Of a stretch of DNA of 64,000 nt, positions 5,029 through 64,000 are shown piece after piece. Each line of letters opens with the position of its first letter. Position 1 is the stretch's first letter. The notes below the pieces were generated by a model. It did no database searches and was not told the DNA's origin. It was given only the letters and a program-made list of their open reading frames with translations. The stretch comes from Owenia fusiformis (taxonomy: Eukaryota; Annelida; Polychaeta; Sabellida; Oweniidae): the NCBI GenBank assembly GCA_903813345.2, contig CAIIXF020000009.1, positions 8,302,030-8,366,029 on the forward strand, given 5' to 3'. The position numbers and the translations under genes are program-made.

Positions 5029-5426
5029 GAAGGTAAACCTATACGTACAGTATTATATACCCCTACATTCCTGGATTGGCTGTCTAATATCTTCGCTTGC
5101 CTGTTAACAAGCCAGTCCCTGAGAGGCTGCTATCGCGAGCTAATTGATAAATGATTACGTCGCAGTGAAGCAGTAATTTGGGAGACTGTCCTTTGTAATT
5201 GGCTTACGGTGATTGTTTAGCTTGTGGAGCAGCCTCATACAATTTCGGAAGATTCATCGGAACGAGTTAGAAAATTTATTTCAAAGTAAAGTAGGGGGAA
5301 AATTACTCGAAACAAATTGAGACACTTGGAGTGTGATCGCTTGGAATCATTGCGCTTCCAGCAAAATTGGATATATGAAAGTTCATTAATGTAAGGAAAT
5401 TATCCTGTTATATTGTGATAATAGAA

Positions 5427-5804
5427 ATGGAAATATTTAAGAGTTATTGGTTTTTACTTATTCTTCAATGGATGTCAAGTGTGACAATTGGAAAGGTGGC
5501 GCTGAAGGTTGGGTACCTAACCGCCGTCACAAACCAAACGCCAAAACACAGATCGGGTCGCCAAGGCAAAATAATATCTGGGGCAATGACGTATGCTGTG
5601 AACGAAATAAATGCTGATCCCTCTGTTTTACCTAACCATTCACTACACTTTATATGGAACGACACTGGGATTAGTACACTTGTTGGAACGAAGGCCCTTA
5701 CGCAACAATGGAGGGAGGGTGCGGTAGCCTTCTTTGGGCCAGAGGACTCATGTGCCGTGGAAGGACGCGTTGCCGCCTCTTGGAACTTACCCATGATCAG
5801 TTAC
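5427..5804 (+). CDS. Exon 1: signal peptide and start of ligand-binding domain
   Basis: Encodes residues 1-126, ending in phase 0 before donor GTAAGT at 5805. The ATG at 5427 sits in a good context (GAAATGG) and an in-frame TGA at 5376-5378 with no ATG between supports it as the first start; the GTG at 5415 is not needed. Residues 1-22 are a hydrophobic signal peptide (FLLILQW core), cleaved probably near Gly22. Three N-glycosylation sequons lie at N36, N70 and N78. [14 protein letters not shown] (Cys109) is the conserved segment of the receptor family that precedes WNLPMISY. Neighbour exon 2 lies 32 kb away but continues the family motif without a gap. Confidence 0.95.
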
Positions 5805-23800: not shown

Positions 23801-26800
23801 TCATTCGTCCCAAGAGCATTCACCATCAGAGAGAGGGCTCCCCAAGAGGGGGCAGTGAGGTCCCATTTAGTCACATTTTTAGAGGCCAGGTCGCCTTATC
23901 ACATACCCCCTGGGGAGCCCCAGAGAGGTGTTTTATGTCGATTATCATTACAAGATAGAATTCCCCCATTGTATTAAGTTCTGTATATAACTAGAGACTG
24001 AGAGGCATAAAGAGACGAGCCTTTGCTGACATATACGTATACATGTAACAAGGGCGTTACCGTATAGATGTAAGGCCCGGACCATTAGTTAATGAAAACA
24101 CAGAATGAAATCCGTGTTTATCTCACTATTGACACTGGCCAACAAAGGGCGCTTTATCTCGGAGTATGCTTATAGAGTCAAGTTTGGAGTAAAGAATTCT
24201 TGAGAGGACCAATGTAACATTCCATCTCATAACTTGTTAACGGATATATCTCTTGCCCAATGAAACCATTCCCAGCAGATCAGTAGAGTCTTATTTAGCT
24301 TTCCATTACAAGATATTATACCGTGACCACATGAATGTTGGAAGTAAATAATCCCGAGAGAGCTACCACAAAAAACTACCCGTTCCAGAAAATTATTCTG
24401 CTCTAAATAGTCTCAAAAATCACTCCGCCATCTTTAGAAATACGCCAAACTTTGAAATGTTTCCTGATATATTAGTATTTCCATATTGAGAATAAACCTC
24501 GATTTATTTATCAAACACGATAGATGGCGCTGCGCTGGGCCAAAAAAGGAAGGGAGAACAGGCGTTTTTATACAGGAAACCAAAATACCAAGTAGTATTT
24601 TTTCTACCCCGGACTATATTCACAGTTGAGAAGAGATGGAATGAGAATCGGAATACTGATGAAATATTGGAGTTTAGTGCTTCTTAATTTTGATTAAGTT
24701 CCCACGTAAAAAATTGAGTACAAATTATCCCAAACATTTTATGGCATATATTCACATGGGCATAATTTTACAATTTAATTAATTCGATTTCCCATTATAA
24801 ACTAATCCAGGTTGAAAGGAAAATTGCAAAATCGCATTAGAATAAAGAACTTAGATTAGCCCAATTGACCCAGATGTTCCTTCCCATCCGGGAATAACCT
24901 TATTTGATGGAGGCTTCCAATTTGGTATTATACTCTTGATGAGAGTGGTGCTTATGCTGAAAATAATAGGAGTCATCGTCATTAAACTTCATCTTCTCTT
25001 GAAGTATAGTATTAATATGAGAAGTATCCAGTTACACTAGTTTTCCATATTGCATTCCTACAACATTTAAAATATTAATTATACTTACAGGGCCGTCAGA
25101 TGGGGGGGGGGGTGCGATGGGTGCGACCGCACCCCCCTTTGTCACCCCCCAAAATAAATTTGAAAAATATTTTTTTTGTATTTTTTTTCCATTGACTCAT
25201 ACACTTTGAAAGTACCCAGAAAGCACCAAATAGCATCTTAAAATTGTAAAATTTTCTAGGGGTATTGGCCACCCCTCACACCCCCACAAAACAATGGAAA
25301 AGTTCTAAATTTATTTTAGAGTTTTGTCTCAGACACTTTTAAAGTGCCCAGATATCATCAAATAGCTCCTTGATATAGTGTTTCTGGGGGACTTACTCCC
25401 CCTCTTGCATCTTGCACTTGCATAACCCCCCCCCCCCCCCTCCTCTGGCGCCGCCCCCCCCCCCTTGACCCCCCCAAAAAAAAATTGTGATTTTCTCAAA
25501 TTCTTTAATTGACTCATACACTGAAAGTGCCCAGAAAGCACCAAATAGCGTTGTAAAATTGTAAAATTTTCTAGGGGGAGTGGGCCACTCCTCACACCCC
25601 AAACAAAACAATGGAAAAGTTCTGAATTTGTTTTATGTATTGTCTCAGACACTTTTAAATTGCCCAGACATCATCAAATAGCTCCTTGATAAAGTTAATG
25701 ATTCCGGCTGGAAGACTAACACTTACTTGACCACTGGCATCCCCACTCCACCTCCCCCTCTGGCAGCCCCCCCCCTCCCTTAACACCCCCCCCCCAGATT
25801 TTTCAAATTTTTTATTGACTCATACCCTTTGAAAGTGCCCAGAAAGCACCAAATAGCATCTTAAAATTGTAAAATTTTCTTGGGAAATAGGCACTTTTAG
25901 GCACAGATACTTTTAAAGTGCCCAAACTTCATCGAATAGCACCTTGATATTGTAAATTTTGATATGGGGACAAACACTTGCTCCCCCTCTGGCACCCCAG
26001 CCCCACCTCCCCCTCTGGCAAAAAATTGCGATTGTTTTTCAATGTTTTTATTGACTAATACACTTTAAAAGTGCCCAGAAGCACCAAATATCATCTTTGA
26101 ATTGTAAAATTTTCTAGGAGAGTTAGCCACCCCTCACATCCCCCACAAAACAAAAGAAAATATTCTGAATTTCATGTATTGTCTCAGACATTTTTAAGTG
26201 CCCAGACATCATCAAATAGCACCTGGTCAATGTTTCTGGGGGACAACCCCTTGCTCCCCTACTGGCACCCCAACCCACTTCACCCTCTCATCCTCTTTGA
26301 CACCCCCAAAAGAATTTGAAAAAAATTCACATTTTTCTTATTGACTCATAACGCACAGGCGTACCAGATGGTTGCAAATTCGCTCCAAATACAGCCAAAT
26401 TTCAAAATTTTCCCGGGGGAGAACCCCCAGACCCCCATGAATTATCGTTTTTTTTATTCACTCAACTCTTATTCCCGTGGTGGTGGCGTACTACTTAGAA
26501 ACTTACACTTTGAAAGTGCCCAGAAAACACCAAATAGCATCTCAAAACTGTAACATTTTCTAGGGGGAGTGGACCACTCCTCACACCCCCCACAAAACAA
26601 TTGGAACGTTTGGAAGTTGCATGCATTTGTTAATTCCAAACCAATATAGGGAGTAACTGCCCCCCCCCCCCATCCCTCTGTCTTACGCGATTTGATTTAC
26701 GCGGCAAAAAATGACAATTTTATATTCTCTTTAGTAAGCTAAAAACCGCACCCCCCTTGGAGAAAAGTGTCTTACGGGCCTGACTTACAGTACGTCCTGT

Positions 26801-29800
26801 GTGCTTTATTACTTGCTGATTCAACTATTTTACTCTTTTATTTCAATGTTTAATTTGCGGGAAACCGGGTACTGATAATTTTTCGCTCCAGGCAGCCACT
26901 TACATTTTATTTACAGGTTATATAAAGCTCAATGAATTAATCAATTTCCATGATTGCAATATAAATGGCTATTGTGACAGTTAGCTGTTACGTAATTATC
27001 GTAATGATTTTGTAATTCAATAACTCTTTATTTATGGTGTTTATAGGATTGATCGTGTCAAGATCACATTGATGGTTGATGGTATTAAAATGTGTTTGTA
27101 ACCGTTGTCACACCTATGGAGACATACCAGTTGGATTTAAAGCCCCCCCCCCTCATATGGACGAAAACCTGACCGACGTCAACTTTTTGTACAATGACGA
27201 ATGGGACTTGAGTAAAATTCGTTCCCAAATTAGTATATGTACGTTGTCACATTTGGGTGTTCGTATGCGGAAGTATCTTTTCGGAAAAAGCTTTGGTCGG
27301 TTTCGGAAGCATGCGTAAAGTTGCACTTAGGTTTGTAGTGCCGTTTACGTTCCCACATAGCTTGAATTGACAATTAACCCAGCAAGGCTGCGCTTAGTGG
27401 ATTCGTTAAGGCCTAGTTTAATATGAGAGCATCTACATCTATGCATAGCATTGAAATGGAGTAAGATCAGGATTTTCACACGTGAGAATTCATCAAGGCC
27501 ACTAGTGAAGGCCTTACATTTAAATATCACTGTGAGAAGGGCATGTGTGTGATACGGATAATGCACTCGTATTTACATTTCAAATTTCCCGTGTGGGTGA
27601 TACTAATGATACACTTGTATTTGCATTTTTAAAATTCCCGTGTAGGTAAGCATGGCACAAGAACCGAGAGGAGGCCTTACTGGCGAAACCACATCAAGCT
27701 GCATTTCTGCAAGCGACCTTAACAAAACAGTTTTAATTAAATTAAATTGAAGAATATTTTGAACTCAAACTATTTGTTGTCATAAGAGTATCAATATCAA
27801 TAAAGTTCATACTTTATTACAGGGAAATCCAATATGGACCATACCCTACCATCCAGATTATGCTGAGAAAAGTTCACTTTATGCAATGAAGAATCAGGAA
27901 CAGCGATTCATGTATATCACTTTCCAGCATCATTTTATCAATATGAACGACCATTATCATGTTCTGTCTAAATATTTGGAACTATATTCATACGCGTAGG
28001 AACATCCGTAATTAAATAAGTTCCGGTTCCTATTATTCGATTACTCCAAATTAAATTTCTGGAAGCTAAATTCTACGTAAGTGACATACGTGTAGTACTA
28101 GCAACGTCTCATGGGGTTTGGGAGGAAACAGCTGTTTCATCGACTGTAAATGGTAGATGTCGTCATTCTATCCATATTCAAAACTATATACCGATAATAA
28201 ACTCTGGAGCAATGATGATTAAATACAACGTGAATTTCAAGCTATCACGATTCAAACAGTATCATAACGTTTCATTTAGGATAATTGCCATTTCGTGAGT
28301 TCTCAATAGTATTATCACGGTTGTTAAACAGAACCATATGAGCCTAGCCATAGGAAAACCGGTCTTATCACAAAAAAATAGAATTGTGCTACAGAGCCAC
28401 AAATGTGCCCAAGATTAAGAGGAAAATGTACTAAATTCAAATTTGTCTTTTTGGTCTATATCTGCAAAGAAAAAATTGTTAAGACATAAGCCATGGCTCA
28501 TTTGAAAGGTCTCTTTGTGCTTTCTAAGATAAACAAAAAATCAGAATATTGAAAATATCTGTGATAAGACCCCTTTCCTTGTGGCCTGGCTCATATACCG
28601 AATTTTTTCGCAAATGCGGTATATTAAAAAGATAGTGTCCAAGTTTACATAGTAGTATAGGTATTACCATGCGTTATACCCAAGAACCCATATATACATG
28701 AAGTTATACCAATATAGAATAATAAGGGGATGGGAGGATAAATCAAAAGCAAAAATGACTATAATATTTTTCCATTTAACAAATTGATGTTGACGTTTCA
28801 TTGTGTACGCCAAAAACAGTGTCACACGATCGCCATTTACAAATCGCTCGTGCAACATTAATATTAGAACATACTGAAGGCTCCCTCATAACGGATGAAT
28901 CCACTAAACGCAGACTAAAATCCCCCTCACATATTAGCGAATCCACCGAACGCAGCCTTGCGCATGAGGTAAATTTGTCAATATTCTGGCGAATCTTTAG
29001 CGAAACTGCGAAACTGTTGCACAATTTCAAAACATAACGAATGGTAATGTTAGATAACTATTTTTTGCAAATGTTTTACGAAGTGTGACGAATGGCTATT
29101 TCTATTCGCTAAAATGCGTTGGGTCTCGCACAAAAACGTTGATCTCCCCGTCAGCGATTAACAACGCAAACATGCGAACTTAAGCGCAATTGTGCGTATG
29201 TTTCCGAATCTGAACGAAGCTTTGCAAAAAGCTTATAATCAACATATAGAAAAAACTTAAAACCCAAATCGGCCTCTGATGAACTGGTGGACGTTCAGTT
29301 ATTGCTGGAAACCTTCTTGGTGAGCTATAACAGCCACATACTGCAGCATCGGGCGCTTTATATCTTCCATTTTTTTTTTATAATAAATACTCTTTATTTC
29401 TTAAAATCATAGATACATTTTCATTGTTATTCACGGCGTAATCGCCCTGAAAGGGCATTTCTACTGCCGCTTTAAGTGAATTTTAAATACAATATAATAT
29501 AACATTTAGTCAAAGTCAGTATTAGAGTAAGAAAAATATATAATTTAGATACTATCTGTTTTTCTACCTGTCTGTACCCCCGTTGGTGCCCTGAATTTGA
29601 ATTGCTGTTATCAATTATTTAATGAAGTTCAAAACTGCCTTAAAGATTTTGGAATTGTTTTCATTTGTCAGATCTTTGTCGCCAAAAAGTAGGAAATTTG
29701 TCTTATTTTTTAATGTTTTGTATTTAGTAACATCTAAGTTTAGTTCATGTTTAACCACCGCTAGCGCATTTGTTTCTCTCAGAGGGCAGGACAAGAGTTT

Positions 29801-32800
29801 ATGCTGTGCTGTCTCTCGAGCTCCACAGTCACAATATGGATCGTTAATGAAAGAGAAATTATGGTCAAAAAGATCGGATTTGAAATATCGATTTACTCTT
29901 ATCTTATTTAGTACAATTTCTTCTTTTCTATCAAGATTCTGTATGTAGGAGGTTGAAATTGTAGGTTCGGTGTTTTTGGTGAGGTGATCGTTTAGTTGTT
30001 TTTTAAAAAGTGAGAAGCTGTTCGTTTCCTTGTGGTCTCTAGGAAGACGGTTCCACAAGGTTATCATTGAGCAAACTGTTCCCGTTTCCATTTTTTTACT
30101 AATTGAGGCTGGTAATTTGTAGTCGTTGGTTGTTCTAAGAACTCGCGTCTGAGGTGATTTATATCGTTCGAAAATACTTCCATGTTGACAAAGGTATATA
30201 TTTTATTTGATTTGGTCTCCTCCTCTCCTGAATAAAATTTCTAATATGCAAATCAAAGTTGTTTTGATAGAAAATTACCCCATAAATTCCAATATGCCAT
30301 AAAATAGAAGAAATGTTGGCATTTAATGGTTAAAAACGCAAATCTCATACAATCTCATAAAAACGAGACTTCGACGAGCTCGAGATTTGAAAGCTGTTTA
30401 GCAATTCCACCATTAGTTTCAATACGTGAGCATTCGTTACTGTTCGCACATTTTCGCAAACTGTCGCAAAGATTCGTAATGGGATCGTTCTCATTCGCTT
30501 GATATGCAAATTAGGTAACCGCATGATCTGATAACTGTCGACAGGAAAAGTTTAGATATGAACCCCTGTAACGCCACTTGGCGTACGTTGACGAGACCTA
30601 AGCGAAGACTTACCGACCGTTAAAGCATTGGAACGAATTACAACTCTAGACACACGAAACTTTTATTCGTCGCAAATTTTTAAACATGTTCAAAATTTTC
30701 CGACGAATAAAACTAATTCCAACGGATGTAAAGTGTAAACGCTCCCAAACGAAAAATACCAACGATGTTCGACGTGCTGCCAGGTACATATTATATTAAT
30801 GGGAGCGAATTTGACTCATGTCCTATTCGCCATTGAACGAAATTAAGTTGACGTTTAGGGGGTTTCGCTCATATGTGAGGGGGCCTTCACTTGTCAATTC
30901 TGGCGATTGGGCACGTAAACGGGACAGCATTTTTTCCATTCAATCGAGGTTGGGCCATGCAGCCGAAGGTAAGCCATACAACCGAAATTTGCCGATTCAA
31001 TCTGACGGAGAATGCCGAGCCTCTCTATTTGACCAATTACAGACGTCCTCTTCACATTCGTGGTACCCTCGGTCAACATCGTTTGCACGTAAACATGCGA
31101 ACCAAAGCGCATCTTTGCACATCTTTCCGAAGCCGTCTGAAGTTTTACGAAGGGATACTAATACAACCCAATGATCATGATGTAGTTTATTGTATACGGG
31201 TACAAATGTTATTTACATAAGTACTATTCGCCAGTACACGCAAGTTGACGTGTGGGGGGCTTTCGCTTCGTTTTTATGTGAGGAGGCCTTAAGACATTTT
31301 ACAATAACACATTTAATTTATCACCTACACGTATTTCATTTTACGTCTAAAATTGCAAATATCTTTTCAAAGAGAACCTTAAGTGGTGATACCTGATACA
31401 TTTTCTTGAAAATAGTAAACAAATTCTAAGTAGATATACGTTTAACTTAATACTTCACTTCTGGGAGTCTAAAATGGAAGATTCATATGTAATTACATGG
31501 AAAAACATCCATTAATTGATCTAGAGATATAAATGGACATGTTAATGATGTTTGTCACTTTAATGCGATATAGTTTATTGGTTTTTGCATACTGTCTCAG
31601 AGGTCTCAATTTAAGTCAGTATTTACTACAGTGATGTGAAATAAATTGATTATTTCAGAGACATTCTTGAGACAAAGATAGTTCATTTACATTTAGTCCT
31701 TAGTGAGACATTTAGCCCTTTTGAGAGCGAATCAGAAGTGTTTCTGTTGAGTTTAAATTGGCGCTCTTGGTCAATAAGACTTATATATTAAATTACCAAC
31801 ACCATATGGATCCGATCTTTCACCCAACGACCATTGTGTTATCTATTATGATATCCGGTCCTTATTTTTCCAAATCCTTAATCCGAAGCATGCGCATCCT
31901 TCATGATCGGTCCTTCACTCCTTTCATCACTGGTGATCCGCTCGATTACGCTGGTTACCGAAACGGATCGTTTCGGTAACAAAATGTCGGAACGTCGAGG
32001 GTATGATTTTTTTCATTTTCCTCATTTCACGCATTGTAGGCAGAATATCCAAGACATTTTTCTCACAAACGTATCAGCATCATGTGTTTTAGAAAAAGTA
32101 CTTGTTTGCGAAAAAATAGCTCAGAAGACAACAGAATCGTCGATTTAATTCCTCACTTAAGTTACATAAACGGTATGGGTTAAAAGTGCAGATTTTAACG
32201 GTTTTTTGAAATACCGTTTATGTAACTTAAGTGAGGGATTAAATCGACGATTCTGTTGTCTTCTGAACTATTTGTTCGCAAATATGTATATTTTCTTAAA
32301 CATGTGACACGAATACACGTTTGTGATAAAAATGTCGTGGAAATTCTGCCTACAACGTGTGGAATAAGGAAAAAAGAAAAATCGTACCTTCGATGTTCCG
32401 ACGTCACATTTTGTTACCGAAACGAACCGTTTCGGTAACCAGCGTAATCGAGTGGATCACCAGTGTTTCATGGCAGATCTGAGATGAATTACTCTTGGGC
32501 CAAGGATGCATACACATGTGTACAGATATCAACAAAGCATTGTGTATGAGTCTACCATTTGCATTCGTTTGACTTCGTTTGTTGAGGAGAGCTTCACAGC
32601 CCCCCTCACATATGAACGAATCCACTAAACGCAGTCTTGCGAATAGAGATAGAGTAAAATTCGTCCCCATTAGTTTGTGTACGTTATACATCGCTGGGGC
32701 GTTCGTATGTGTAAGTATCCATTCGGAAAGCTCCGGAAACACGCGCAAAGATGTACTTCGTTTCGCAAGTTTACGTTTCCAATCAACAGAATTGACATCG

Positions 32801-35800: not shown

Positions 35801-38800
35801 GTTCATGAAGTTAATGAAAACACAGAATGAAATCATGCGCTAGGGGCTGATGTGAAAAAGGCAGTCCTCCCCAATGGGGATCGAACCCACGACCCCTCGG
35901 TTTCCGGGCGATTGTTCTACCACTGATCTATAGGACTGATTGGTTTTTCCACATTAACATTGGCACGGTGCCCATGTCAAGCTGCGCGCCTACTTAGGCG
36001 CGCAGTTTGTTTCGATCACAAACTGCGTGCCTAAGAACATTGGATCATTTAAGTTGGAGTCTGTATTTTGAAACGTTATTTAAAGACATTTATCCTGCAT
36101 TGTTTTCTTGTTCAATGCGTTCATTCTGTGGCGAATATACGAATCTTGCAAATACTAGCAAAAACTGTGTGCAAATGAATCTTAGTTTTAAAACATAAGC
36201 AGATTAATGGCATTTTCGTCACTGATTTAATGGGAATTTATACGTAAATCGATCTAGCACTTTAAACATAAATGACAAATACTTTAGACTCGTTTTATAT
36301 ATTAATTCCTTACACATTTATCATATTTAATTCAAAATATTTCGAAATAAAACAGATAATCAGGAGATTAAAAAGAAATAAACCACAAACTGCGCGCCTA
36401 TTTTAGCCAGAAATTACAATCTGTGCGCATACACTATTAAAACTGCATATTATCATTGGAATTTCTACAGAGGTACGTGTAGGTGTTTTCGATGTAGCTT
36501 TGGAAATTTTGCTTTATCGTCAGATTTTATGAGATTTTCATATTTAAAGTCAAAATGTATAATAGAAGTGACAATTAAGTTGGGAACGAAAAAAACATTT
36601 ATTTTCAGATCACCATCTTGGTGGATGGACTCTCATAGTGTTTCAATTATGGGGTTCTACTATTAGACACATATGTGCCTTGTATGGCGCTTATGTTTTC
36701 TAATAATACAAAACAAGCTTGGATAGGCAAGCAGTTTTGAAATATTAGGCACGCAGTTTGGGAAATACATGTGAATATAGGCGCGCAGTTTGACAAGAAA
36801 AATGTTTAAATCACGTTTATGGCGTATTATCGTTTTGAACACAAACTTTGCTGTTTTAATCAGATGGAGTGATCCTATATATTCTAGCATACACAGACAC
36901 AATGGCTGAATAAACGGCAAATGACGATAAAAAGTGATAGATATAACTTTACACTGTAAATTTTGAACACAGAAGTTACTTAAGACCCTTATATTGAGAT
37001 AACTAGGTTTACATCGGGAAAAACATTGAGTACTATGAGTAAATTAAGTTCATCTTCACAGAATGGTACTATCTTTAGAACGAGACTAACCTTGTATTTT
37101 TCGTATTTTGGCTCTTTTTGGGAGTCGTGTCCTCCCCGTCTCACATTTTGAAATATGCGCGCAGTTTGTCAGAGTTTCAAACTGCGTGCCTAGTACGCAC
37201 GCTGCTTGACATGGGCATCGTGATTGGATTCAAAGCATTGCAGCCATGTCTTACATGCCCTATTCCCTGGACCCTATATAAAAGTTACTTGTCTTTCCAG
37301 GTTGCCAATCGTTCTATTTATGATGTCACGTGGTCTTTCCAAAGGGCCATTCTCTCTTAGGAGAAAATAGTATTAGTTAATTCGTTTCATGTTAATTCGT
37401 TTCAAAGTATGTCTTAATTTATTTTATATTTGTTAGATATATCGTTAATTGATATTGGTATACAGGTCGGCCAACTATATATATAATGTGATTTTATTAG
37501 TACTGATGCCCTTTTAGGGCCAAACGTACATCCAATATACAATTTTCAATAACAGTAAATATAGCAATAAAGTAAAGAAAATAGGATTACATTCTTCAAA
37601 TGACATATAAAATGTTACTTTGATATCAGAATCCTGTCTCTACCAATCATTAGATAATTCATCATGTTAGCAGATTCTTTTAATATCATCCCCTTCACTC
37701 GTCAAAAGTCTTTTGGTGGCCATTCATGTTTTTAAATTGAAATTACTACACAGGTTTTCAAGTTTTGGTTTTAAAGTGCCAAAAACTTATTTATCAATTA
37801 GTAAAATCAATTTCGCTTTGTTTTGCGAAATCGTTATTGGTACACTGAAAGTCCAAAATACATGCATTTACATAATCTGAAACTGTATCGTGTCTTTGTC
37901 AACGAAAATGTTATTTTTTCAGAAATGTGCAGACCAGAGTGTTTCAGACAAAGAACTTTATCCCACATTTGCACGAACATTTCCCCCTGCAACACAAGTC
38001 ACGAAATCGATCATAGCGCTGTTGTTAAAATTTAACTGGATGCGCTTCACAATTGTGGCCGGCTCATACCCAAAATGGCAAGATATAGCGAAAAACCTAG
38101 AATATATAGCAACTCGGCATAATTTTACAATTAATGGGAGATTTGACTTCGAACAGCCATACTATCCTGACTATAAGTCAAAAAGTCCGAGGGGTGACCC
38201 GCTTCCAAGGATTGTTCAAGAAAGCTACGTGGATACTCGAGGTGGGTTTCTATACGTTAATTGCGACACTGGAATATGTATTTGAAAATTAAAGTAGTTA
38301 TCATCTCGAGGGAAGGCTAGTTATAATGCCTAAATGTGCAGCATACTGAGATTGTCCTGGAAAAAAGGTGTGGAAATTCTGGGTCCAAAAAGGGGAGAAT
38401 AAAAGAAATCCTGAAAACTCACATACCATATTAAAACCAAACTATTTCATCTATATTATGTTTGAATTTTATCAAGTTTAGTTTAGTCAATAACGATAGT
38501 TTTCCATGTTTTTGCACCACAACAGAAAGAGCAGATTTTAAAAATCTGCTACTGTTACCGAACTATAACGCATATTTTCTTTATTATGAGTTCTTCACGA
38601 AAACCTCAAAATATCTGCGGTAAAAAGCAAAATTTTGATTTTTGGCGTAAATCACTAGCATGCATCGGCAAACAGAATGGAAAAAGTATTTGTTAACCTC
38701 TTGAATCCCAGGCTCTAAAATTGGTTGAAACCAGAGAATTTTTCATTTTTGCCACCTTTTCACATTTCACTACAAACCTTAATACAACTTTAGATGCTCA

Positions 38801-41800: not shown

Positions 41801-44800
41801 GTTACTAACGATAGTAAGCAGTCCACCCACGAACCCATTGTATTCAAAATTCCACGAGGAAGTTAATCGGTTCCTCCTGCGTCGACCTTTCAATTTCACG
41901 AACCCATTTGGCAAAGCAAAAGTTGTAAGTATTAACGTTAAAGAGGAGCAAAATCCGCATCAGAGGATTTGCATGTAACTATCATGGCTATGTTTACAAA
42001 TGATTCAAGCAATCTATTTTACAAAATGTTTATGTGATTATTTACTCGTTGTGATAAAAAAAAACATTTTACAAAAATCAGAATATCTAGATTGAATATC
42101 GAGTTGATATTCCCCCAATTTTCCATTTTTAACTTTTGTGAAACTACCGTATCTTACTATGTCTGACCCGTTTGACCGCCATTGTGGAGACACGACGACT
42201 CTGAAATAGGATTATATACAATTTAGAATAGAAGCCTAATTCACGTAGAAAATGTCGCTTATTATCTTCTTTATACGGCTTGTTTATGAATTATGGTGAT
42301 GGGTTTCCTGATAAATTAATCAAAATACAATCTCTGTGGAAACAGCGTTATGCTTCAAAACAGTAACTCTAATTGGCAAACTCTTATCGAAAACCACACA
42401 CATTATTTTTTAGATATTTATCTTAATCAGTACCTGCAAAAATTGAAAAAATGCAAGTTTGCTATATCAGTCGTACTTTTCTATTTTTGTCTTGATTCAC
42501 ACCTGTTTCTGGGTGATTTTTTCTGTTGGACAAGATTACCAATATGAAGAATTAAACATGTAGAAAACGATGCCCATGCCATGGAAGCAACTATGTGAAG
42601 CTTGTGTCCCCAAATTGGAATTTGTTTTTCTTTAAGATTCCACTAGATCTTTATAGTATATATTGGGAATATGCCAAGAGTTTCAGATAATTGAAAAAAT
42701 TATAACTGATAAAGGACAATGTAGCTTTTTTAATTTACAGAGGGTAAATGATTACACATGAACATACCTTTGAATTCCTTTTTACAGATTAGTGTCTACG
42801 CAGCATATCTCTACGATGCAGTCCATCTCTATGCAAGGGCCCTTCATGAAGTTCTTGTGGAGGGGGGAAGTGTCACCAATGGAAGTTACATCATTTCTAA
42901 AATGAAAGGAAAAACATACCGAAGTAAGACTTAAATGATTATACCATCTAACGGAAGCGTGGTGTATCACGATAAATTCGATCACATCATATCTAAATTA
43001 AGAGAGAAGATACACTGTACCGAAGTAAGACTTAAATGATTATACCATCTAACGGAAGCGTGGTGTATCACGATAAATTCGATCACATCATATCTAAATT
43101 AAGAGAGAAGATACACTGTACCGAAGTAAGACTTAAATGATTATACCATCTAACGGAAGCGTGGTGTATCACGATAAATTCGATCACATCATATCTAAAT
43201 TAAGAGAGAAGATACACTGTACCGAAGAAAGACTTAAATGATTATACCATCTAACGGAAGCGTGGTGTATCACGATAAATTCGATCACATCATATCTAAA
43301 TTAAGAGAGAAGATACACTGTACCGAAGTAAGACTTAAATGATTATACCATCTAACGGAAGCGTGGTGTATCACGATAAATTCGATCACATCATATCTAA
43401 ATTAAGAGAGAATATATACTGTACCGAAGTAAGAATCCAAATGATTATTACGTTCGATGGAAATGGGAAATAACCAAAGATAAAATAAAGCAGCACTTTT
43501 GCTTTATATTTAAATTATTAATTTTTTCATTACACGCCACATCTGTTTCTATTCGTAAAAGGATTTCGATTATTCCATCAATAGCAGGTTATCAAGGTGC
43601 ACGTTACATGTACGTCTTACCATTGATCATGCCTTCGCGCGAAATTATCTGAAAGCATAATTTCAAAAATATGTTTTTTCTGTCTTCGCCATTATTGAAA
43701 GCAATGTTTACGCAAAATTAGTTCTCAAACGTCCGTTTTCGAACAGGACAGGCGAGCTATAAGTCTGCCAAATAATCGAGCAGACTAGCACTTCCGAAGC
43801 AGCCTCTCGTTCTAGCACGTCCATCACGTTTAGCAAGAGATGGTTAAAGTTGTAACTACGTTCAATCCTTTTACATTCAATTCAAGTCTGTAAAGGTAAA
43901 ATTCTCAAGAGCTTTTGAGAATTAGTTTGATGTGACCGGAGCTTATTGTCTGCAGCTCATTTAGTGTGAACAAGATATTTGAAAAGCTGCTTCAAAACAT
44001 CTATGGAATACGTGAACTAGAACTGAAGCAGAACAGTAGCTAGGAACACTTTCTTGTGACCGACATTATATTGTCGTGACTTTACACCTGGATTTTATAA
44101 TTTGTCCAATGGCTCATATTTGTTTGATCCAACAGTAAAATATTAAGTTACATCAATATTTCAGTCAAAATTACTCTTAGTATCAAAACTAAGTATGTAT
44201 TAGTAATTTGAACCAGAGATCATGGATTCTACAATATAGTAAGGCAGAATCAGATCTAGTGAGAAGACTCTCCATCAATTGGTTCAATTTAGAACATTTT
44301 GGCCTCTAGCATTTCCTTCATTTACACTTACTACAATGTATGTTTACGCGGTATATGGCATACATTCATGGTTGCGCGGTATTTGTGATACGGGTGAATA
44401 TGCCATACTCACCTGCGGTATATGGCATATTCCGCAGGTGAGTATGCGATATTCCGCAGTGAATATGCGATACATTGATTTCAGTGAATACCCGATACTC
44501 ACCTGCAGAATATGTCATACTCACTTGCGGAACATGCCATATACCGCAGGTGAATATGACATATACCGCAGGTGAAAACGTGATACAGAAAGCCTTGATT
44601 TGATTGGTTGCGAGAATCGACTCTAAATGTAAAACTACGCTAGATTACCAATATAGTTAGTGCGTCGAGTACTAATATATGAATCCTGGATTGATTGAGT
44701 AAGTTGGTTGGCGAGATTGGTGACTGATACTTCTGATAAGTTGATATATTCGATACATAGTACTGTTGATTCAGTAGTCATTATAATAATTTATAACGTT

Positions 44801-47800: not shown

Positions 47801-50800
47801 TCTTAATTTTTTCGGCAAAAACATGTGAGGATAAATGCTATATTATTGGTATGAATTGGTGTGACCTCTAAAAGTTAGTTTTGAATATATTCACGATTTT
47901 TTAACAAAAAGTCCTTCAAAAACCACCTTTTGAAATTAAAAAAAAAGTTTCACGTATCACACTTTGATAACATGGGATAAGACTACAATTTAAGTCAAAG
48001 TAGTTCAAAATTTATATGGGTACTTCAAGGACTGGAGCGTAAGGTTACGTAATGGAAATGAGTTTATAATGAAAATGATGGATATACTGTTTATTAACTA
48101 TTTGATAAATTTTATTACTTTTACTCTGTACAAATGTTATTTGATTTTTCAACAATTTTAACCAATGTTTAGAGAACTAATCTAAAAGAAATGTATGTGC
48201 TAATTGCTTACTCTAAAGATTTATGGAAAATATTACTTATAAGTTAAACTCTAAATACTCTCTCATATATCCATAATTTTTATTACTTGTTGTCTTTACC
48301 CTTGAGCTTAAATAATTCTTCTTTACAGGTATCCAAGGTTTTATGTCATACATAGACAACCAGGGCGACGCTGAGGGTAACTATACTGTGTTGTCAAGGC
48401 AACCATTTGTCTCCACACATGCAAACTACTCCATGATGCCAGTGGGGCACTTCCAAATAGAAAACAATGAATTACCGGTAAGTCATTGTTTCAAATAAGA
48501 TGAGACTGAAACTACATTATGCAATAATATTTTACCAATTCAACCAATTCATAAAACTAGTCACGGTGTTGAAATAACTTTGTTAAAGGTACAGGGGGTT
48601 TAATAAGGATTTCCTGTCACGTAGTATTTTGTTTTCTTTGCTCTGAGCAGGTCATATTCTACAGTAGAATGTGATATTAATTTGGTTAACCATTATGTCA
48701 CAAGGATTGGTTTTAATACATTCAATCACCAATTTTCAACTTGCTATTAAAGTAGAATAAATGGAAATGTTTCCTTCTTTTTTACCTTGCCAATAACCGC
48801 TTGTATGATCGATTACATATGTTCCTTTTGCCTAGCTCGGCTTGTTCAGTTGTTGGTCCTAGTAAAAACCTTTCATACAAAAACTCTAAACTCACCAACA
48901 TTCAATTGTGACATCGGCTTAAAAATTATTTTACTTTGTCACACTTCGTTTACTTTGTTGACAATATCCTTTCGACAGATATCTCCAAAATGAATTCCTT
49001 GTTTCCGTTACAGAGAGTCATTCTTTACAAAGGAATTAGTTTGGACTTTTTACCCTTCACACCTGGTCCAAATATATATAACTCGGCCAGTAAGTTATAC
49101 ATGATACATCAAGTGGCATGACCTGTTATTCTGTTAGAATGTGCTGCTCTCACATACTCAATGGATGCCGCACATGCTTCAATTCAATATTTCGACCACG
49201 TATCTTATGAGCTAGCATGCGCAAGCTGATCCAGTTGAGAAAATATAATTACGTATACACCATACACTTCTCTTGAGGAAATATAATTACGTATACACCA
49301 TACACTTCTCTCTGCACAATCCCGAACGGGCAAACTTGGTCGTTCAGAATTGACCACCTGTGTAAATGAATGACTTGATGAATGAATGGCTTTAAGAGAT
49401 TGTGCTTAAGATCGTAGTCTTAAAGAAAATGATAGGGATTTTCACTTTTTTTTATTTTTGGATCTCATTTTTGCCAACAGGACTGTATAAAATGTCCTAC
49501 CATTGATTGGACAAAGTCATATATCGTTACACAAAAAAATACTCCTTAATCCTTGTGGTAAAAATAAGAACTAAAAAGGTGAGGCACATTTTCACACCCC
49601 ACTTATTTCTTGAGTCTCTGGTTAGACTGTATTCTCTATTATCACCCACTCGTTGCATCCTCGTGTATATCCTCTTTATCTAGGATGTTATTCTTAGGTG
49701 TTCACATACCTGCCAGGTAGAGCTATTAACTGGCTCAAGGGGGAAGTACCTATCGATGAACCAGCCTGTGGATATCGCGGGGAACGATGTATACCAAAAC
49801 CAAGTAAGTCGCAATCTCTTGTAGGTTTATGTTATGGAGAAAGTATGAGTACTGTGTTTTATGAGAAGTAATAGCCGAGTGTCGTAAGATCCAGGGCTAT
49901 CATTTATCCTAAAATCCAGTACTAGCATTTTATTTTATTTAACTTAAACTCTCAGTGAGTTTTGATCTCAACTATTTCCTATTTTTTCCTATTTTTCAAT
50001 CTCAACTATTCTAGGCACATAATCCTAGTTAGTTTCAAACTCAATGACTCCAGGGCTTATCATTGAATAGCCATTTTGAATAAGCTACATGTATACTGAT
50101 TCCTTTGAAATAATTTCTCAAAGTACTTACACGAGGACGTGACAATAAGTTCTCGGTGTTATTCAGGGTGCTGTTGAATTTTATACTGACATTTATCTGG
50201 ATGTGCATGTATACCGTAGAAATATTTTACAGGGTGAGCCGTGAGAACTCAGTCAACCAGTATGGGTTTAAAGTCATATTTAGCACAGTCGAATCTAGGT
50301 CAACGTTCTTTAAATCAATGAAGTTTCATTGATCTATTTCAAATGCTCGCAATTTTATGGCCATTTAACAAAAATGCGACTATATGTGACAGAAATGTTT
50401 ATCTTTGAAGTTACATTTTGAATCAAGGCTGCACAAACAATGGGATTTATATTTTTCTCTATTCTTCTACACTTATCCTTCTCAAACTTTCTCAATGTAA
50501 AAACTTGCTGAATTAAGGAAAAAATTAATCAATTAATCAAATAGGATTCAAATAGGAAAGTTTACATTTACCATGATTATCTTTATTATCGATTTATTAT
50601 CAAAACTTAATGATACATTGTATGAATAATGTATTTTAGTCTACTAAAAACAAGTAAATTCATTGGGGTCGAGTTGACCAAGAGGTGAGATGACTTGGGG
50701 TCGAGTTGACCAAGGGTTGAGATGACTTGGGGATGAGTTGACTAAGGGTTGAGTTAACTTGGGGTCGAATTGACTAAGGGTTGAGTTGACTTGGGTTGAG

Positions 50801-53800
50801 TTGACCAGTTACCACTTAAAACCCATGTGCTGGATGACTGAGCTTTTTCGATTTGTTTCAGATACTTTTTTGGGCTCACACTGCACTATATATTTCAAGG
50901 ATATCACATGGATGTTTATGTCAATTTAGTGTTGTTCACACATTATAATGGTTATGTGTATATATAATGAGTCAAATCAATGCGCACTAATTAGCCGCAC
51001 TAATGCCGTGGTCACATGTTCACCGATCTTCACCACCGGTGCCCGGCCGATGAGTATGAGTATACAAGTTTGTACAAAATACAAACCAGGGCCGGGCGCT
51101 GGTACTGAACATTTGAGCAAGTGTGACCACGACATAATGCCCATTATATGTTTACTTTCTATGTGTACACTTATTGGAATCCTAAGATAATATTGTAGAA
51201 TATGCCATGTCTGGTGTGTAAACAGTGTCTATAAATACCATGTCAGATATCTCTTTGTTTTGACATAAAAAGTAATTTTTACATGTCGATTAAACTATTT
51301 GTTTTCGGAATTGATTAGTCACTGTGATAAAGTTCGTTCTGACATGAATAGCAAACGGATCTTACGGATAGTAGAAACGTTTTGAAGTTAACTTATACTT
51401 ATCAGTGTTACATAATGACAGCTATTTGTCAAAAATGTCTATAGACTGTAATATAAAGATCAATTCGCACATGTTGAGCTTTTCCAATAAGTAGTATGTT
51501 TAGCTTTGTCAAATATTTAAGTCTAAAGTAAAGGAGGTTTCCTTATGTTATAGATTACAGGGATATCGCATCTCAAATTGACTTGTCAAATCTGTCATGA
51601 TATCGTTCTTAGAATAGCTCAACCGACTGGCCATAGATTGATATGCATATCAAAATGGTAGCCATATTGTTGATACATCGATCACTCTCAAGTCTCATAA
51701 GTCGCATATTCAAATCCGAGTGCTACATACTATTTGTACGCACTGAACAGTAACTGTACGGTACAAGAAGAGGGTAAGGAAATTGCCCATGATTTGGTCA
51801 CGATGTCATACTAAGTCTATCAACTTAGATAATTCGATGACATTTCAACTAGTCAATCATAGATAAGCCTGTTTGCATATAAAATGGTCCTATGCACCAG
51901 CGGTGAATGGGGTTATGGTAAGGATGTACCGCGGCAGGGTGTTCACTCGTGTGCTTGTTGCCGTACCAATAAAAAAAATGATACATGTATTGAAAACAAG
52001 GTCCTTTAAGACACGTGTATTCACATTTTTGAAAAAATTGCAATACTTAATAGCAATAAGGTTTGCAAATATTGAATGCAATCTACAGTCAAATTTATTA
52101 TCTAATGTAAATTTGTTCTTGCTAAAATAAATAATCAATTGATCACAGTGTGATATTTTATGAAAAAAAACATTCCATTTTACAGTTGCTATATTGCATA
52201 GTATATAAGCTGTGATTTCTTGTTAATTTGAGAGCCTCAAGACCCAAGCTTATAAATTGTTTTGAGCCCATGCTTCATTATAACATGGCAGAAAAGAATC
52301 AACATACAAGGGGTCGCACATTTGATTGTCAAAAATATACCCAAATTTTGTTCCATAACATTAAATTATACCATATCCATATATCATTATAGTGTTATCA
52401 TTGCATTGCTTATTGTGGACTTAATTTAAAGAATCATTTGAATTCAATAAACAAAATGATTTGCAATAATAGCCATGTATCGTGTTTTTTATAATTTTAG
52501 ATAAAACGCTGGAAATTGTGTTAGGCGTCATTGGAGGGATTGTGCTAGTTATTCTAGTCGTTGTGTCCATTATATACAGGTGAGATTGAATTCACAAAAG
52601 TGCCATTATATGAGCCTGGCCATAGGAAAACCGGTCTTATCACAAAAATTAAAATTGCGCTACAGAGCCAAAAATGTGCCCAAGATTAAGAGCAAGATGT
52701 GCTAAATTTAAATCCGACTTTTTGGTGTATATCTGCAAGAAAAAAGTGTTAAGACATAAGCAATGGCTCATTTGAAAGGTCTCTTTGTGCTTTTCAAGAT
52801 AAACAAAAAATCAGAATATTGAAAAAATCTGTGATAAGACCCATTTTCCTGTGGCCTAGTTATTCTAGTCATTGTGTCCATTATATACAGGTGAGATTGA
52901 ATTCACAAAAGTGCCATTATGCTATCTATTCACGTCAATAGCCACAGTCCAATGATGTACAATACACATCGGTCATACGAAGCCTTTGTTTTGATCTATA
53001 AAGGCCTGGCATCAGAATACATAACTTTATTCAATTCTTTCAGGATGAAAAACGTGACGTTTAAATGCCTTGAATAATGTGTGTACTTTTGTGTTGCATC
53101 TAAAGCTGTTATTAATGCATTTTTTCTTAATCATCATCAAGTAAAAAGTATTTTTTTATTTATTAGAAATCGAAAAGACATTTAAAGCATAGTTTATGGG
53201 TCATGAGAATTTACTATAGAAAAAATGTGTTTTATAGCTTTTTATAAAAAATATTGAAATGAATGCGGTGTATCGTCTTATATTAGATTATTTTTGTAAA
53301 CAAGACTCGCTCTTTTGTAATCATCCCAGTTGGTAATGTAATATTCAATGTCTGAAATAAAAACTATTTAAAAAAAGAAACGACATTGATAATAATATCC
53401 ATTCTATAATTGAAAATATCTATATGTTTCAGTTTAGTTTTAATTTCAACCCACCCCTGAGTATAAATATGAACATGCAGTACAAAAGTGATTAATCATG
53501 AATTTCTAGTTTAGTTAAAAGTCTTTTAATAGAAGTTTGTAAAAATTTACTTTGATTGACATTGACATTGATTGACATTGACATTGATTGATATTTTACA
53601 GAAACTGGCGCTATGAGCTAGAGTTAGCTGGGTTACTTTGGAAAATAGATGCTGCTGACATTTTAGGGATTGGTGCGTTTGGCTCGAAGGTGAATTAAAC
53701 ATTAATTTAACTATTAATTAATTCAATATTAAAAAAAGTTTTAACTCAGGATTGCCAACATTTTAAACTTGAGCAGCTGTAACCGATCAATTTTTGCCAA

Positions 53801-56800
53801 TCAGATTTATATTACTATCATGTAGGCCTATATTCAAATGACAAATAGAAATAAAAGTAATCAATAATTTTACATTGTGACGTCACTATTTCAGGCAACG
53901 CTGATGAGCCAGGGAAGCATGGAATCTCGAATGTCAGCCAATCAAATGTTTGCTAAAACAGCAAAATACAAGGGCCAGGTTGTAGCACTCAGGAATATTC
54001 ATAAAATGGATTTCAACAGGGCACTGCAAAAAGAAATGAAAATGGTATTGAATTCGAAAGTCTTACCCCATGTTTAAATTTCTTATATTCCTTAAATTGA
54101 CTCACTTTAACATTGTCTCGACTTTCTGAGGCCATTGTGTCTGAGTTCTCCAGTGCAAAAGATCGGAAAATTAAAGTGATAGTCTATAAAATAGGATAAG
54201 ATTATCCGTAAAGCATAAACGTGACCGGTTTAATTAAAGGCCTTATAATGCCCTTAACATACTGGTAATATACTATCCTAATGATACTTTAGTCACGCTT
54301 AATACTTATTTATGATTTTGAAAATAGATTGATAATAATTTGACTTATACTGTATAAGTGGTAATTATTTCCTAATTTTTGCCAGGTTCGGAAAATTAAA
54401 TGTCAGAAATATTGTCTTTATAATGTTATCCAATGGTTTCTTGTCATTAGGAAAATTAAAATTAGGAAAATGATGAAATTTGACCATTCGGAATATTAAC
54501 CACTCGGATTAAATACCACTTATACAGTATATAGGAAAACATCTTATGCCCTAAATGTAATGAATCCAGTATCTAAATTAACCGACGTAGGCAGAGAAGA
54601 ACGAGTGCATACTAATTTTCCATATTCGTTCCACAGCCCGCCTTGATAGTGAGCTTCATTATTTTACCTGCACATATTAATTTAATTTCATGTTTTTATG
54701 ACTTAATTGCAGATGAAAGACCTGCTCCATGACAATATAAATGCTTTCATAGGAGCGTGTGTGGGACCGGACTTCTTGATAACAGTCACAGACTACTGCT
54801 CAAAAGGCAGTTTACAGGTAATGAGTTAAATAGCACTGTTAAATGCTGGTGAATCATTTTTTGTTATTTTGGATGTTACAATTGGGGCAATTTTTTCTTT
54901 TGACCCGTTGACCTCTGAAATGCTCCCTTTATTAATTGTTTGATACTTGTGTTGTCGTTTCCTTTTGTCAGTTGTGTCATACTTATTTTTTTTATAAAAA
55001 CCTCCCAATGTACTTTCAAAATATTAAAATACCTTGATTCTACAGGGTGACATAGAAATACAGCCCTATAATTTCGGAATAACGTTTTCAATTATCATCT
55101 TGTTTCATACGTTGTGCAATTGTGTACTTACATTACATATCATCATTCATCAACAACTTCTTGTCATATATCACGTTTTTCGTTCAGATATGCTTTCATG
55201 TGAAATCTCAATTGCAGGTTCATTGTCTCAAATAATCAACTCAATTCCTAGTAACTCACAGTTGACAAAGGTATTGACATACAGGGTGGGTGGTCAGAAG
55301 TAAGATTTACTATTTTGCCAATTATCTTGAAACTTGGTACAGGAGTTTACCAAACATTACTGAGTTGATATCTTAAAGATAAAGGCTCTACTGTTTGATT
55401 GGTGCATTTCATGGTTACTATGGTAACCCGATGTGACGTCACCCGGGGCAAATTCAATTTTGCGAAAGAAACTCTTCTCAGCTTGAAATCTTAAATAAAT
55501 ATAAATAATTGTTCAAAATATTGCCATTTCAAACTGGGTACTACCGGGGACTTTGATTTTTCAGGTCCATGGTACTACGATGAGAAATATATTGCTAATT
55601 GTGACAATTATGCAAAGTAGCATGGATAAAATGATTGAGCAATTAAATGTTCATGATTTTAATAAAATAAAGCTTTAAAAACTAACATTAATATTGTCAT
55701 TCTATTTTCTGCTAAAACAAATAATTTGCCCCGGGTGACGTCACATCGGGTTACCAGAGTTACCATAAAAATCATTCAATCAAACAGGAGAATCTTTATA
55801 TTTTTATTATACACTCAATAATGTTTGGGAAAGATCTGCACCAAGTGTCGTGAAGATTGGTCCAATAGTATTGAAATGGCAACATCTTAGACGTTACTAA
55901 AACAAATAATTTGCCCCGGGTGACGTCACATCGGGTTACCATAGTTACCATAAAATCATCCAATAAAACAGGAGAATCTTTATATTTTGAATATACACTC
56001 AATAATGTTTGGGAAAGATCTGCACCAAGTGTCATGAAGATTGGTCCAATAGTATTGAAATGGCAAAATCTTAGACGTTACTTCCGGATCACCCTGTATT
56101 ACTTGAAAAATCCGTGTATTATTCATGGCACTTAGGTATACAGCTTTTATCCAATAATGAGTTGAAAACATATTTCATTATTCATGTCTAAATAAACGTA
56201 CTTTAGATAGAAAATCAGTTGTTTGTTTCAGGTATTAATTATCTCGGGTTGAAACAGATCATTGATTAATTGTGAATAAGACTTACTCTCTTGTAATCAA
56301 TCCCTGTTTGGAGGTTTCAACCGTCATGCTTTGGGTTAAAAAACAGTTTGCAGCAGCAACCATAATATAGAATATATTACTAATAAATCTGTTGTTTATT
56401 AATATTGTGGTTATCTAATTGCAGACATTTTTGATATTTGTAGGACATATTAGAAAATGATGACTTGAAATTGGATGCTATGTTTATAGCTTCTCTTGTC
56501 ATGGACCTAATAAAGGTGGGTGATAACAATGGATTTACAAATTAATAAAGATGACAAAAGAGGAATGGGTTTACCAAATAACATAAGTATTCTAATAACT
56601 AATCAACATGAGATCGTAATATGATCTCCAACGATTGTACCCTGGACAACTGGGACATTTGAGATTTCCCATCAATTGTAAACGAGGACAAACAACGCAG
56701 GGGCGAGTAGGTAGTCACCAGTCCCACCACCAGGTGGCTCATTCGGGTCAGATATCATGGCGGGTAAAGTAGAAAGTTCCCTTTAACTTAAATTACATCT

Positions 56801-59800: not shown

Positions 59801-62800
59801 CCAAAGAGAAAGCCACGTGCTTTACCGACTCAATGTTTATGTCGGTAAAATTTGACCAATCAACGACGGCCCTGCAGCGTTAGCTCATTATTATGCACGG
59901 TCAAAAACAAGTACACTTTTTACTTTTCGCCGGGACTTTTCACGAACAAATCTTGCATGAATTCATCATGAAAATACAAATATTTTATCAAATAAATATC
60001 AATCAGAGTTTAGTGGATGCCAGAGCATCGATCGGTAACCGGAGGTGAGAAGATTTCAACAATAAACATTGGACTCGGTCTTGCATTTTCATCGCGAAAT
60101 CAGTTTTAAATCTATTGCATGATTTAATTTATACTAAAGACTCTTACATTCCCTATGTACATTTAATTACATAATATATTGTAAAGAAACGATCGATCAG
60201 ATCATTGAATTTCAAATCGGGGAGATTGCTTTGCTTATGCAGGTCAACCTGATAACGTTTTGATTGGTCAATCAGCCTGAAGTCACACGTCGTGTCCACG
60301 CGTATATCTGTTAATCAATAAGGTTTCGCGATACCCCTGATAGCGTAGGTATTATGGAAATCTCGAAACCGTTGAATAACTCTGCATAATATCAGCGCAG
60401 GTGTATTGGATTGTACAAGGCGGTAATAATTCAAGTTCAGATAAGTAAAAAATACCGACTTGGGCAAGGCTAATTTAGTGTAACTGCTCGGCAATCATTT
60501 TCATGTTTTAAGACCGGTATATTCAATGACATCAAAAACGTTGCAGTCGAAATGTTGAGACATGCGCAGACCTCTATTTAGTGATATTTTCATTTCAAAT
60601 ATGGCGGCCAATCCGATGTCTGACGACCCTTACAAAGAATCTAGGCAGTTTGCATTTTTACCTCCTGTGAAATAACAAGTGGAATTTAGTAGTTGTTTTG
60701 TGTTTTATTATCATTCTGCATCGTAATTCTATGTGATGTGGTGTTGAAATGTCAGCAGAAATACATATCCATACGATAATCGAGTGAATCAGATAACAGA
60801 TTTTTCCGAAAACCCGTCTCGTGCTAAGAGTGTAAAAACTTGTATTAACATGCTCAAAAGTGCCAATGTGCACATCAATGTCAAGCTAAATCAATATTGT
60901 GTCTAAAACAGGTACCTGATCTACTCAAAACAGCTTGTCATTCACGTATACACGCTTAGCAAACACGGCGAAATGACCTGAATCTTGGAATTTCGTTTGA
61001 GAGCTAGTAATGTTTGCTCCGGTCTTCGTCATAAGTGTTCATCAGACTTCACGCATGCGCAGGAGAAAAACCATCAACCAATAAGGTTTATAAATCAATT
61101 TTGCGCATGCGCCTTACAACGGTAAAGAAATTCGTATTTATAAACAAACCAGTTTGAGATAACCCGATATCAGTCGGAGAAATCTGACGATCTACGAAAC
61201 TCACTTCAAAAAATCAAATGCGGACTGACGGCGTATTCTACTATGTTTGGATCTAAGATTTTCAGTATAGATAAAGTCTTTTATGATCTTTCGAATGAGG
61301 TAAGTTTCTAGTTCGAAAGACAATCGTATCAACTTGAACAAAAGTTGAGTTTTGACGAAAAATTTTAACATGCGCAGAAGTCCCATTTTCGTTGTACCAT
61401 ATTGACTGGTTGGTGGTATGATCGGACCATTTTGTATCATACCCAGACCAAACATATCTCTTGTTTACACTTATGTGTCTATGTAAACTATAATTGCTAA
61501 GGTGAATCCTGTTTATTTTAATGAGTACTTGGATCCGCAGGATGACCTTTTTACTTGTTTACTCTCAATATTTACAGAAATCATTGCCAAGGTGATAGGG
61601 CCACTGTGTCCCGTCTTTAGACCAACCATTACACCTCATTCCTGCCAGGACTATGTGACGTCATGCATGACCGAATGCTGGGACGAGTATCCGGAAAATA
61701 GACCCGATTTCAGAGAAATACGATCCAAACTGAAACCCATGCGTCAGGGAATGTAAGACCATACACTATTATACAATTATGTGTTTTTGCATCTTACGTG
61801 TATTTTATGATTGTTCCAATTCCAACATGAAACATTATTCTAATAAGTGTCGGATGTTAAAACAATATATCTTAATAACAACAATAATAACCATTATATT
61901 TATTTGATTGCCGATGATCTCGAGGCTTGTTTGATAGCAGAAAAAACATGCAATTGTCTTTGTTAAATTAGTAATACGAGACATATCATGTATCAAGAAT
62001 AGACCATCGTCCATAATACAGAATGATTTTGTATATCATGGAACTCAAATGACATGAAGTATGAAGTGAATGTCAAGGAATAGGTGTATGCCTAATTAGC
62101 TACCAATGTGGGTTCACTTGTATGTGTCATTAGGTTTGTCATGGGCAGATAACGATTTCCTGATCAGGGGGTGGGAACAGGATCCCAAAATGCGAACAAA
62201 TCATCCGATCCAACCCCGTGTAAATATTCAATTTCAAGGTGGAAACCCCAAATTGCATTAGATGTTATAAAGATTAGCATTGAAAGGTGCAGATTGTTAT
62301 AAGTAAACAAAAAATATCAAAAATGATGTACAACAAACAGTGTCAAGCCCCATTGCTCACCATCAAAGAACCATCAAAATCCAATATCACAAGACCATGG
62401 GACAGACATTCAGTGCTGACTGTATTGTAGAGTAAATGATGTAACAAAAAAATTAGTGATATTAGACAAATTCTATTTAAACAGGAAGACAAATATATTT
62501 GACAACATGATGGCGATGATGGAGAAATACCAGGCGAATCTAGAGACGTTGGTGGAAGAAAGAACGGATCAGTTGATGGACGAGAAGAGAAAAACAGAGG
62601 CCCTGTTACTCAGAATGCTTCCAAAGTAGGTTCAAACATTTGGCCTCGATCCTTTGCGTTAGGCGATAGCTGGTTCTTGACTTTAGAAAATTCGATTCGC
62701 AATATTGACTCACTTGGAAATATATTAACAGTTGAAATACATGGTGAACCAATATTATATTTAAAGATAATATGACATTAGACTAGAGGCGGGACTATCC

Positions 62801-63652: not shown

Positions 63653-63775
63653 GTATGTTGCTATTTAAATTCGGTAACTTTTTGTGGCTTTAGGAATTTG
63701 ATAGCTCCATTTTGTCTAGACAGATAATGGTCTCATCTCATTGTCTTCATAGCCCCTGCTGTACTTTACATCGTG

Positions 63776-63990
63776 ATACCCATACATTTAAAAACAAAAC
63801 AACAAGCATATGAATCAAAACGAAGCATTATGGTATAACGCAGATTTGAAGTCAATCTGTGTTACAGCCATTTAAATTCTTTCAGGATACGCATACATTT
63901 CAAAAACGAAATCAAAAGCGTGTGAATCAAAACGAAGCACTGCGGTGGTACGCAGATGTGAAGTCAATCCACGTTACAGTCACATCATTT
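63776..63990. repeat. 115-bp direct repeat in intron 18
   Basis: ATACCCATACATTT (63776) and ATACGCATACATTT (63891) begin two units sharing GAATCAAAACGAAGCA, ACGCAGAT and TGAAGTCAATC at about 80 percent identity. The second unit is preceded by TTCTTTCAG, which imitates an acceptor. Confidence 0.75.
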
Positions 63991-64000
63991 ATTTCAGCAT

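Follow-up and report, generated by a model that had tools for sequence, protein, structure and literature searches.

A 101-bp sequence that spans the end of a coding exon and the start of the following intron is repeated in tandem in the 64-kb stretch of DNA analyzed here (hereafter the window), and the splice donor of that exon is repeated with it. This array is probably a recent minisatellite expansion over an exon-intron junction, in which the first donor would be used and the others would be latent. In the process that we propose, a 101-bp segment over the junction of exon 5 and intron 5 would have been amplified in tandem in recent times, through unequal exchange or replication slippage, so that the productive donor now heads a row of donor copies. 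Production of the receptor encoded by the gene would require this first donor, and use of a later copy would add a stop codon to the transcript and probably lead to its decay. The array would most likely be a near-neutral minisatellite, lowering or varying the efficiency of splicing only modestly. If exchange goes on over the exon end, the exon end and the intron copies would evolve in concert, and a broken copy, such as that of unit 4, could be carried into the working donor.

The array was located at positions 42917-43448 on the + strand by Tandem Repeats Finder (period 101, 5.3 copies, 98% matches, 0% indels), and comparison of the units resolved it into five full units followed by a diverged partial copy of 27 bases. 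Units 1, 2 and 3 do not differ at any base, unit 4 carries a single change relative to them (GT to GA at the donor), and unit 5 carries two changes, close to the unit end. In pairwise comparison, the five full units differ from one another by 1.2% on average. The sequence-only reading had set the limits of the array at 42917 and 43440; its start stands, while its end is corrected to 43448 by Tandem Repeats Finder. The same reading had described an exact 101-bp spacing with nearly identical units, a repeat starting seven bases within the coding exon (42917, against an inferred exon end at 42923), and a set of donors comprising the exon's own, four further intact copies and one GA copy, all of which agree with the values above and with the donor positions in the sequence. 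The longest exact repeat between 42801 and 43560 is 210 bases long, whereas base-shuffled copies (n = 200) reach at most 13, so the array did not arise by chance. The likeness of the units and their exact spacing also support a recent expansion. Past 43448, no further in-register likeness to the unit was detected (1455 of 3000 shuffles were equally good). Kinship of the unit to other sequence in the 64-kb window was considered and rejected, since outside the array it shares only two common 12-base words, one per strand, and a few 11-base words. A dispersed satellite or a transposon-borne repeat would be expected to have further copies, and the window contains none beyond these short words. The identity of units 1-3 would also fit an assembly error, with one or two units in the actual genome. 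This explanation is very unlikely, as units 4 and 5 and the partial sixth copy each have differences of their own, which argues that part of the array at least is not the product of software copying.

The gene that hosts the array lies on the + strand and, judged by the layout of its domains, is a receptor guanylate cyclase. The earlier description of a receptor gene was borne out by Pfam, which identified ANF_receptor exons followed, in order, by kinase-like, HNOBA-like and Guanylate_cyc segments; both the ANF-receptor ectodomain and the kinase-like, coiled-coil and cyclase parts that characterize receptor guanylate cyclases were found. ANF_receptor exons are located at 5400-5825 (E 6.6e-11) and 37881-38285 (E 3.2e-09), both on the + strand, and the matches of exons 1 and 2 to this family are above the Pfam cut-off. 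Exons 3 and 4 were chosen by eye among open frames and neither has a Pfam match, so the number of exon 5, which counts them, is provisional. The kinase-like segments start at 54707, 57837, 58174 and 61487 (Pfam kinase-family matches), and only the last of the four (61487-61753) is above the cut-off. They are followed by the HNOBA-like segment (E 0.0031, below the cut-off) and by the start of the Guanylate_cyc domain (E 1.2e-05, above the cut-off). Another segment, at 53868-54074, has only a weak, unrelated Pfam match.

The coding exon that enters the array, inferred at 42788-42923 (+ strand), is preceded by the acceptor TTTTTACAG and ends with ...KMKGKTYR plus one base. On its own, it matches ANF_receptor at 42785-42922 with E 0.00018, below the curated cut-off. 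Exon 6, inferred at 48329-48477 (+ strand), is bounded by the acceptor TTCTTTACAG and the donor CCG/GTAAGT. When both exons are joined, the resulting 285 bases are in frame and free of stops, and the ANF_receptor match rises to E 3.8e-06, above the cut-off. The joined peptide also matches the natriuretic peptide receptor A (1dp4) with E 1.3e-06 over query residues 5-71, a region that spans the junction. Because of this in-frame join and of the homology and ANF_receptor gain across it, the donor of unit 1 (GAA/GTAAGA, 42924-42929, + strand) is very probably the working donor. The alignment with the natriuretic peptide receptor A also supports the reading in which the first donor of the row is the productive one. 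A gene broken by the array, with the first donor left unused in this allele or gene copy, is by contrast scarcely credible: the first donor is weak and is followed by equal competitors, but exons 5 and 6 are open, have correct sites and are conserved over their junction, and several other exons retain recognizable domains.

Beyond the first donor, intact copies are present on the + strand in unit 2 (43025-43030), unit 3 (43126-43131), unit 5 (43328-43333) and the diverged partial unit 6 (43429-43434), whereas the copy in unit 4 (43227-43232) reads GAAGAAAGA, with GT changed to GA. The array accounts for five (42921, 43022, 43123, 43325 and 43426) of the six occurrences of GAAGTAAGA on the + strand of the window. 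Competition among these donors for U1 and variation in the number of copies, which the sequence-only reading had proposed, are hypothetical. Choice of the donor at 43025, 43126, 43328 or 43429 would add 101, 202, 404 or 505 bases to the transcript, respectively. In the frame of exon 5, the added sequence reads CGA AGT AAG ACT TAA, as had been stated before, with the stop at 42932-42934 (+ strand) coming directly after YRSKT. The expectation that use of any downstream donor would include a stop at once was also confirmed by computing each case, and this single stop, common to all four intact downstream donors, supports the view that they are latent. The distance from the TAA to the junction is 90, 191, 393 or 494 nt for the four donors in the same order. 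According to the usual rule, nonsense-mediated decay requires a stop more than 50-55 nt before a junction, so transcripts from the downstream donors should be targets of decay; these transcripts are expected either to be degraded or to give a stub of the ectodomain.

The same stop could give the array a role. Some transcripts would use the downstream donors, gain the stop at 42932 and be destroyed, so that the number of copies would set the level of the receptor. All four intact downstream donors lead to this stop, which would precede the junction by 90 nt or more, and in human IFI6 two repeat units further downstream act as donors, as described in a passage of PMC4526556. In addition, a passage of PMC6002489 states that the intron-proximal donor is favored where two donors are comparable, for reasons described there as not known (with reference to Roca et al. 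2013). Such a preference, to the extent that this passage reflects it, would mean that the downstream copies carry a cost and are not neutral, which counts against the near-neutral reading and means that low use of these donors should not be taken for granted. The near identity of the units nevertheless fits a young array better than conserved regulation, and one donor copy (unit 4) is already broken; we therefore regard this "poison" array as unlikely. A more specific version, in which a donor array of variable length that co-evolves with the exon end acts as a length-tunable valve, with more copies giving more early-stop transcripts, appears quite unlikely. If true, it would provide a natural experiment on spliceosomal choice between identical 5' splice sites at a spacing of 101 nt. 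The array would be valuable mainly as a system in which to study donor choice, any function being putative: the row of identical donors occurs naturally, one broken copy could serve as an internal control, and every wrong choice would be marked by the stop, so that donor choice should be directly testable. The array also illustrates how a repeat can couple the end of a coding exon to intronic copies.

The strength of the donors was estimated from computed pairing with the 5' end of U1. The exon 5 donor scores -4.5 kcal/mol, which is weak. On the + strand of the window, 474 of 3423 GTs have a better score and 24 an equal one, counting the exon 5 donor itself; within intron 5, 29 of 271 GTs outscore it. 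The donor copies are thus not the only attractive sites. The nine donors inferred in the gene have values, in gene order, of -7.6, -10.0, -7.2, -7.3, -4.5, -9.3, -8.1, -8.0 and -6.6 kcal/mol, a set that leaves out four of 13 segments without a clear end and in which the values of the other exons are biased upward, the strongest candidate per segment having been taken. The exon 5 donor is the weakest of these nine (-4.5 versus -6.6 to -10.0 kcal/mol) and may therefore lose to its competitors, a second point against near-neutrality. The same weakness would be consistent with extra donors that are not spliced and instead recruit U1, either to aid the first donor or to guard the 5.4-kb intron from premature polyadenylation. 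Enhancement of a nearby authentic donor by extra donors is cited in a passage of PMC6002489, although for upstream ones, and silencing is cited there as well. We find recruitment of U1 highly doubtful, given the upward bias in the values of the other exons, a possible donor at 54045 in the omitted segment 53868-54074 that is weaker still (-4.2 kcal/mol), and the 29 better GTs that intron 5 holds in any case. Intron 5 also contains degenerate 22-bp repeats at 44394-44576. A CAG/GTGAGTAT site within them, at 44438, has the strongest computed U1 match of the intron (-14.1 kcal/mol) and on paper outranks the real exon 5 donor.

The place of the array is by itself unremarkable. When a 532-bp array was placed at random, 4633 of 63469 placements (7%) covered one of the nine inferred donors, and tandem repeats, mostly short, occur at 16 separate places in the window (our own count from 21 Tandem Repeats Finder rows). 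An overlap of the array with a donor thus needs no special cause. Repeats elsewhere in the window include a 315-bp repeat at 25191-25884 (2.2 copies, 80% matches by Tandem Repeats Finder), a 184-bp repeat at 55712-56082 (two copies, 95% matches) that sits between the kinase-like segments of the gene, and a 112-bp repeat at 63775-63997 (two copies, 79% matches), which stops 3 bases short of the window end and may continue beyond it. A 16/32-bp repeat, TTGGGGTCGAGTTGAC..., is located at 50663-50807, its 32-bp form being present in 4.6 copies. On the - strand, an open frame of 195 codons at 29615-30202 contains a Cys/His stretch that, judged by eye, resembles the tail of a polymerase from a non-LTR retrotransposon; its Pfam match is weak and of a different kind (E 0.054).

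Other properties of the unit were considered. RNA structure that would hide or expose donors was rejected: folding of a single unit is at the level of shuffled sequences (z 0.05, 108 of 200 shuffles fold equally well), and the region 42880-43460 folds worse than most shuffles (z 1.59, 97 of 100 fold equally well), neither showing any special structure. The unit was also rejected as a hidden coding exon, as its 34-aa open frame has no Pfam match even with the limit set at E 10, its length of 101 shifts the frame, and the exon 5 frame meets an immediate stop. Recursive splicing was set aside because the unit reads CGAAGTAAG with no pyrimidine tract ahead of it, as judged by eye.

An older edge of the repeat may tentatively be recognized deeper in exon 5. 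A stretch of 14 bases at 42888-42901 (+ strand) agrees with the unit at all but one position (13 of 14), with an offset of 5 bases from the 101 register. Without any constraint on register, its 23-point score was equaled in 12 of 2000 exon shuffles, 11 of 2000 unit shuffles and 7 of 1465 real windows that overlap one another; the highest score among these windows was 24. With the register constrained, 2 of 3000 shuffles equaled it, as did 1 of 2174 real windows. A second set of 1704 real windows, also constrained, contained 2 that reached the score under the same scoring, and 4 and 37 under two looser ones. The rarity of the match thus lies between 1 in 50 and 1 in 2000, according to the scoring, and the stretch is a weak lead. 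Upstream of this block, likeness to the unit was not above control (1093 and 945 of 1705 windows were as high). If the match is real, the original duplication would have included more of the exon, of which only the last seven coding bases would since have been homogenized with the intron.

The closest known case, and a clear precedent that the array appears to resemble, is the donor-bearing minisatellite of human IFI6 (6-16, G1P3), whose multiple splice donors were reportedly described by Turri, Cuin and Porter in 1995 (Nucleic Acids Res 23:1854). In both genes, a tandem repeat supplies several donor sites after one exon; here, the array starts at 42917, the exon ends at 42923, and five intact donors and a broken one are present. 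The repeat unit is about 12 bp long in human IFI6 and 101 bp long here. Downstream donors in IFI6 give reported protein isoforms, whereas their use here would lead to an immediate stop. According to a passage of PMC4526556, the two downstream units of IFI6 that act as donors give rise to three mRNA species, while the extra donors of the present array are known from the sequence alone. The IFI6 repeat is also cited, in a passage of PMC3618361, as a minisatellite that interferes with splicing. The literature titles searched, which covered few subscription journals, included no other donor-bearing minisatellite. A prawn lectin family combines variable tandem repeats with alternative splicing, and the passage concerned does not state whether donors lie inside the repeat (PMC7536079).

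Tandem duplication also multiplies splice-site sequence in a mode of intron gain outlined in a passage of PMC3443670, where an exonic segment with AGGT is duplicated and AGGT provides both the new donor and the new acceptor. In contrast to what that passage outlines, an existing donor is multiplied here within an intron that was already present, and the sequence at that place in the unit is AAGTAAG, not AGGT. Intron gain by this route was rejected for the present array, as the inferred acceptor (48327-48328) is 5.4 kb away, outside the repeat. Ordinary intronic minisatellites, or variable number tandem repeats, share with the array a similar unit length, a homogenized core and a diverged copy at the edge. 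Unlike them, the array crosses an exon boundary and includes what is very probably the working donor.
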